This document shows, in pieces, positions 6,675-7,100 of a stretch of DNA of 32,347 nucleotides. The DNA comes from Chromatiales bacterium. GTDB taxonomy: Bacteria; Pseudomonadota; Gammaproteobacteria; Chromatiales; Chromatiaceae. Numbering within the stretch: the stretch's first letter is position 1; each line of letters opens with the position of its first letter. Where the stretch lies: positions 1-32,347 of the forward strand of contig JAQYVP010000126.1 of NCBI GenBank assembly GCA_030145485.1, in the 5' to 3' direction. Under the pieces are notes generated by a model. That model searched no databases. It worked only from the letters and a program-made list of their open reading frames with translations, and was not told the DNA's origin. The position numbers and the translations under genes were made by a program.

Positions 6675-6702
6675 AGTTTGCAGTAACTGCCTACTGCAAA
6701 CT
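6675..6702 (-). terminator. Hairpin between convergent genes
   Basis: A perfect 11-bp stem (AGTTTGCAGTA, 6675-6685, with TACTGCAAACT, 6692-6702) encloses a 6-nt loop. On the minus strand the stem is followed by TTTT, so it can terminate the DsrC-like transcript. The TGCAGTA/ACTGCAAACTGACGACTGCC wording recurs at 16217, 19670, 22118 and 22305, so it may have arisen from a repeat. Confidence 0.5.
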
Positions 6703-6721: not shown

Positions 6722-7045
6722 TTACGCCACGCTGCCGAACGAGGGGTCTATGCTGCCGGCGGGAATATTCAGGCCGGCAAGTTTGCAACCCATGGCGACA
6801 GGTCCGCCTGGAATAATCTCATAAAGATATTTGACACCACCCTGGGCGTAAAATTTTTCATCCAGTGCATCCTTGATCTGACGTAGGTTCGCCCTTTCTA
6901 CCTTGCTGTAGTACTCCTGCAGGGCGCGAACCAGGTTCCAGTGGTCATCGCAGAGAGTCAGGCCCTCTTCTGCAGCTATTGACTCCGCCTGTTGAGGGTC
7001 CCAGTCACTGGGTGCATTGGGGAAAGTATCGATTGAATTGTTCAT
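6722..7045 (-). CDS. TusE/DsrC-family sulfur relay-like protein, lacking the terminal Cys
   Basis: This 107-aa protein matches the DsrC fold. It has an N-terminal AESIAAEEGL and DDHWNLVRALQEYY core, then KYLYEIIPGGPVAMGCKLAGL. DsrC normally ends in a flexible arm with CysB in the (G/A)CK(I/L)AGL motif and CysA as penultimate residue; TusE keeps only CysA. Here the CysB position is present (MGCKLAGL). The residue 11 positions later, where CysA belongs, is Ser (PAGS), and the chain continues nine residues to FGSVA. The protein is thus neither a canonical DsrC nor a TusE and probably cannot form the intramolecular CysA-CysB disulfide. A strong AAGGAG site supports the start. It stands alone, away from dsr or tus genes. 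Confidence 0.8.
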   Translation of the reverse strand: MNNSIDTFPNAPSDWDPQQAESIAAEEGLTLCDDHWNLVRALQEYYSKVERANLRQIKDALDEKFYAQGGVKYLYEIIPGGPVAMGCKLAGLNIPAGSIDPSFGSVA

Positions 7046-7100
7046 TCGTTGCTCCTTTAGAGTTTAGGTTTGGGCTACGCCCGTTGCTTATTGTCATTAA

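Follow-up and report, generated by a model that had tools for sequence, protein, structure and literature searches.

In A. vinosum, DsrC carries a persulfide exclusively at its penultimate cysteine, Cys111 (here CysA), and its interaction with DsrEFH needs this residue together with Cys78 of DsrE (PMC3397948). The upstream cysteine, Cys100 (CysB), is found only in organisms with dsrAB, with few exceptions (PMC3397948). For the same protein, binding to the DNA that lies upstream of the dsr cluster is stated (PMC5944118), and four extra DsrC paralogs are present in A. vinosum (PMC3368242). Among viral proteins, the dsrC_1 group of SUP05 viruses was described as being without a 7-8 residue insertion (PMC4164917), and one phage DsrC was found to have only the first Cys motif (PMC8190135). 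Sulfur oxidizers of the Dsr type often have several DsrC paralogs that are still unexplained. The locus described below provides one class of them with a sequence signature.

A tailed DsrC paralog with a lone C-terminal cysteine

The window analysed is a stretch of 32,347 nucleotides from a Chromatiales bacterium (assembly GCA_030145485.1). Its minus-strand open reading frame at 6722-7045, which starts with an ATG at 7045, encodes a DsrC-family protein of 107 amino acids, referred to as the window protein, with the following features:

6722..7045, minus strand: DsrC-family paralog of the FGS-tail type, 107 aa (profiles, alignments, orthologs, dN/dS ~0.1)
7052..7058, minus strand: Shine-Dalgarno-like AAAGGAG, ending 6 nt ahead of the ATG (sequence inspection)
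6785..6787, minus strand: TGC codon of Cys87, the CysB equivalent (Cys in 25/25 close orthologs and 82/113 tailed homologs)
6752..6754, minus strand: AGC codon of Ser98 at the CysA position, the penultimate Cys of DsrC and TusE (alignments; CysA absent in 109/113 tailed homologs)
6725..6751, minus strand: C-terminal extension IDPSFGSVA past the CysA position, predicted to be flexible (tail alignments; pLDDT ~41)
6675..6702, minus strand: terminator-like hairpin directly after the stop, a 12-pair stem followed by TTTTA (terminator scan)

The window protein matches both the Pfam DsrC family PF04358 (66.1 bits, cut-off 24.9) and the NCBIfam model TIGR03342 (62.2 bits, cut-off 53.5). Its AlphaFold model (mean pLDDT 80) shows a helical core of the DsrC type and a disordered end (pLDDT ~41) and finds its best PDB matches (Foldseek) in A. 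vinosum DsrC (1yx3) and the DsrC-family protein 7syb; the protein is thus predicted to have the DsrC fold. Alignments to 1yx3 and other solved DsrC chains pair C87 with CysB and S98 with CysA and leave nine residues beyond. This arrangement, a cysteine at CysB, none at CysA and a nine-residue tail, had been proposed in an earlier note on this DNA and is confirmed by the alignment and by 25 orthologs. The only other cysteine, C32, is not conserved among relatives.

DsrC proper is defined by two C-terminal cysteines, and the window protein falls outside this group, with CysB present and serine at the CysA position. Regulatory DsrC-like proteins without cysteines go by the name RspA; the Cys-free C-terminal arm that marks them is likewise not found here, since C87 is present and invariant among close orthologs. 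What the protein does display is a D-x-(S/G)-F-G-(S/T) tail at fixed spacing, the hallmark by which an FGS-tail subfamily is defined here. The TusE equivalog model NF008562 has a cut-off of 191 bits and yields 50.5, far too little for the window protein to be called a TusE ortholog on its sequence, and CysA is also missing. The Shine-Dalgarno-like motif before the ATG and the terminator-like hairpin right after the stop (two terminator-like sites were found, compared with 0.8 expected in shuffles) suggest that the tailed dsrC gene forms a one-gene unit.

Close orthologs were drawn from genomes of the same genus, the same family and other gammaproteobacterial groups. C87 and F103-G104-S105 are invariant in 25/25 of them, all of which have Ala or Ser in place of CysA. 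A special role for the serine, which the earlier note had stressed, is not supported, the residue being Ala in most relatives. With dN/dS values of 0.08-0.14 relative to four close orthologs, synonymous changes greatly exceed non-synonymous ones, and the tailed paralog is under purifying selection. A clade of CysB-only, CysA-less proteins with an FGSV tail, whose existence the same note had raised as a question, does exist and is under purifying selection.

The tail and the cysteines in the wider family

A profile of tailed proteins was used to search 370 gammaproteobacterial genomes, and its matches were then examined as sequences; a phylum-wide draw contributed five more tailed sequences. 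The resulting 113 non-identical homologs show identical tail spacing: the phenylalanine follows the CysB position by 16 residues and the CysA position by 5, and the chain ends 3 residues past the FG. CysA is absent from 109 of them (Ala, Ser, Thr, Val or Asn at this position), and the four homologs that have it comprise two with both cysteines and the tail (L134, L150) and two with CysA only and the tail (L129, L136). The CysB position is Cys in 82 homologs; the other 31 have Ser, Leu, Met, Thr, Ala or Gly there. The tail, not the cysteine, is the most conserved feature, a comparison that holds within the tailed set, as the search profile includes the tail and favours proteins that possess it.

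In a phylogenetic tree, the window protein belongs to a clade of 64 rows (99/89) whose members have nearly always retained CysB. Cys-less tailed proteins are scattered over the tree and include single losses within this clade (L087, L102, L118), indicating several separate losses of CysB while the tail persists; the tree is built from few columns, with many open forks and no known root, and does not fix the order of gains and losses. Some members contain cysteines elsewhere: L077 (KDCGFGSVQ) and L101 (RDCGFGSVQ) have an extra one within the tail, and L118 has Ala at the CysB position but a tail ending in FGSVC, with Cys as its last residue. Moreover, the two-cysteine DsrC-like proteins L147, L148 and L155 carry a short extension after CysA (PNDCIDLS or PNDCIDFS), making them possible intermediates towards the tailed form.

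Genomic context and co-occurrence with dsr genes

The source genome is a fragmented metagenome-assembled genome (MAG) of 260 contigs, in which the tailed gene (contig C224) has no dsr neighbours. A canonical two-cysteine DsrC is encoded on another contig (C238) with dsrA and dsrB, inside a reverse-dsr cluster whose gene order fits dsrABEFHCMKL, the names beyond dsrA, dsrB and dsrC being assigned from sequence and order. Further DsrC paralogs of this genome include two Cys-less forms and one with CysA only. A search for a conserved operon partner around the tailed genes across relatives revealed none: the LemA/M48/CBS synteny common to the closest relatives is confined to the genus, and other tailed genes lie near ccm/nap, glmU/atp or rpoS/surE/ispDF-like genes (all names read by eye).

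Two recurrent gene arrangements were also observed. In several families, genes for a TlpA-like thioredoxin and for a periplasmic protein that matches no Pfam family adjoin or lie near a tailed dsrC paralog, in varying orientation (L041:4283-5430, L046:3029-4209, L068:6534-7662, L177:7470-8554, L178:4985-6117). A different cassette, divergent from dsrA, comprises a protein of ~230-330 aa and a Cas6-family protein (L052:13790-15874 on G000:C238, L173:3232-5125, L174:7511-9578, L175:7435-8950); in L174 it is located near dsrC, and in L052, L173 and L174 it contains a Cys-less DsrC paralog ending in KGGY. The Cas6 call is based on a PF09559 match of 197 bits for the L052 copy only, the other copies being recognised by position and sequence. 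The fixed presence of a Cas6-like protein beside a reverse-dsr cluster is unexpected.

Mobile elements were also considered as a source of the tailed paralog. No tailed homologs were detected in viral contigs (A1 patterns), and annotated phages and plasmids gave TusE-like matches only; a viral or plasmid origin was rejected because none of the viral contigs, phages or plasmids searched contained a tailed form.

The dsrA gene was searched with TIGR02064 in the same 370 gammaproteobacterial genomes. The tailed paralog occurs in 65 of them, and dsrA is present in 61 of these 65 carriers versus 64 of the 305 non-carriers (Fisher p ~2e-29, a value inflated by kinship, as many carriers are related). 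Viewed from the other side, 61/125 dsrA genomes are carriers versus 4/245 genomes without a dsrA match, leaving 64/125 dsrA genomes without the tailed paralog. In two of the four dsrA-less carriers, an incomplete dsrB match lies at or close to the end of a contig, in one case right at the end, as would fit a broken assembly; the remaining two are MAGs of 90-91% completeness whose genera include other members with dsrA. At the family level, carriers are present in 31 of 56 dsrA families. Within-family contrasts are few, but in one family (f120) both dsrA genomes contain the tailed paralog and the other two genomes do not. All tailed paralogs from the phylum-wide draw likewise come from dsrA genomes, including three outside the Gammaproteobacteria. 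Thus, across the gammaproteobacterial genomes and the phylum-wide draw, the tailed paralog is nearly confined to dsr genomes, and the dsr part of the co-occurrence check suggested in the earlier note finds dsr genes in the source genome and in nearly all carriers. Since the gene is situated outside the dsr operon and no neighbour of it is conserved, its link to dsr rests on this co-occurrence.

Possible role in Dsr-type sulfur oxidation

Without CysA, the tailed paralog would have no cysteine at which to receive sulfur from DsrEFH, nor would it form a CysA-CysB trisulfide of the kind used by DsrAB and DsrK. The exclusion of the usual trisulfide or disulfide chemistry in the earlier note is borne out, because the intramolecular bond is impossible without CysA; the single cysteine could at most engage in intermolecular bonds. 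As CysA-dependent sulfur acceptance and the trisulfide would both be unavailable, an accessory function comes to the fore. In our leading reading, to which we give even chances, a duplicated DsrC was repurposed as a non-carrier accessory protein, either regulatory or adaptor-like, of Dsr-type sulfur oxidation. More broadly, the tailed paralog is probably a helper or regulator of the Dsr pathway rather than an ordinary sulfur carrier. A non-carrier role is favoured because relatives lose CysB yet keep the tail. Docking may proceed through the DsrC-like core together with the FGS tail, the target being either DNA or a partner by which DsrC is handled as well; the protein would thereby modulate this target. 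The lone CysB, where present, would then be an optional thiol that could form a persulfide or link up with another protein in a mixed disulfide. A regulatory version would have a precedent in the reported DNA binding by A. vinosum DsrC (PMC5944118). The paralog most likely goes back to a two-cysteine DsrC that was duplicated in sulfur oxidizers of the reverse-Dsr type, which fits with the intermediates L134 and L150, as they have both cysteines and the tail. More tentatively, and with less than even confidence, we propose that the whole subfamily defined by the FGS tail is a dedicated non-carrier control or adaptor element of reverse-Dsr oxidation, in which the cysteine is dispensable in several lineages. 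Two points count against an accessory function: a purely structural role would leave the near-constant CysB in the clade of the window protein (25/25 close orthologs) unexplained, and the link to dsr is based on a co-occurrence that is inflated by shared ancestry.

The invariance of C87 among close orthologs, its counterpart in 82 of the 113 tailed homologs and the near-restriction of carriers to the dsr-bearing set would also suit a one-cysteine sulfur carrier, in which C87 carries a persulfide, or pairs with another thiol protein in a mixed disulfide, and sulfur is passed on to a dedicated acceptor that the tail recognises. We regard this explanation as rather unlikely. It is weakened by the replacement of CysB in sister lineages that have kept the same tail: 31 of the 113 homologs, the product of several separate losses, retain core and tail without a cysteine at this position. 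In addition, it is the missing cysteine that DsrEFH addresses in A. vinosum (PMC3397948). It is the loss of CysB with retention of the tail that leads us to rank an accessory role above both this alternative and a decoy function, which is one form of the accessory reading but is judged separately here. A decoy would compete with DsrC, its core binding DsrAB, DsrK or DsrEFH and its tailed, CysA-less arm blocking the DsrC site, thereby throttling flux. The predicted fold, which is the same as that of DsrC, the fixed length of the extension after the CysA position and the co-occurrence with dsr all agree with such a mechanism, but the residues adjacent to the arm differ from those of canonical DsrC, so that DsrC partners may not be shared, and we consider it improbable.

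A TusE-like function in tRNA thiolation or general sulfur relay, independent of Dsr, is suggested by membership of the same Pfam and TIGRFAM family, but seems very unlikely in view of the low NF008562 score, the dependence of TusE on the penultimate cysteine that the window protein lacks, and the fact that nearly all carriers are dsr-positive. As for a decaying or mis-assembled dsrC copy, the fragmentation of the source genome could make one suspect a frameshift or sequencing error that hides a terminal cysteine, which the earlier note had named as a possible refutation, along with a cysteine at the CysA position of close relatives. Neither materialised. The same residues and the same length past CysA recur in independent assemblies of many species, Ala or Ser occupies the CysA position in 25/25 orthologs, dN/dS is ~0.1, and the Shine-Dalgarno sequence and terminator-like hairpin are intact. 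This explanation is refuted by conservation, and its probability is negligible.

Collectively, these findings give the tailed class of paralogs a testable link to the Dsr pathway. They also imply that counting any PF04358 or TIGR03342 match as DsrC or TusE misannotates function. No published description of the tailed subfamily was found in a search of the literature available without subscription. Compared with known systems, the window protein shares with DsrC (A. vinosum Alvin_1256, PDB 1yx3; Desulfovibrio DsvC) the helical core, CysB within a C(K/R)xAGL motif, the flexible C-terminal arm and the presence in dsr genomes. Unlike DsrC, it lacks CysA and an N-terminal stretch equivalent to IEVDGKxxETDEEGYL, has a nine-residue D-x-S-F-G-S tail and is encoded outside the dsr cluster; residues next to the arm differ as well, with, for example, YGPAKQAC in place of the GGPVAxGC of canonical DsrC. 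The phage dsrC_1 group (PMC4164917) and the single phage DsrC (PMC8190135) similarly keep CysB and lack CysA, although the tailed form was not found among viral contigs or annotated phages. Some tailed relatives resemble RspA-type proteins in having neither cysteine, whereas CysB is retained in the window protein; the source genome's own Cys-less paralogs (L002 and L003, with the C-termini KPKGEH and STRKGGY) group apart from it in the tree. Finally, TusE (E. coli YccK) shares the family and core with the window protein, but it keeps CysA and lacks CysB, so that the two are mirror images. The tailed subfamily thus represents the opposite case, keeping the dsrAB-linked cysteine, dropping the supposedly strict one and being nearly confined to dsr genomes.
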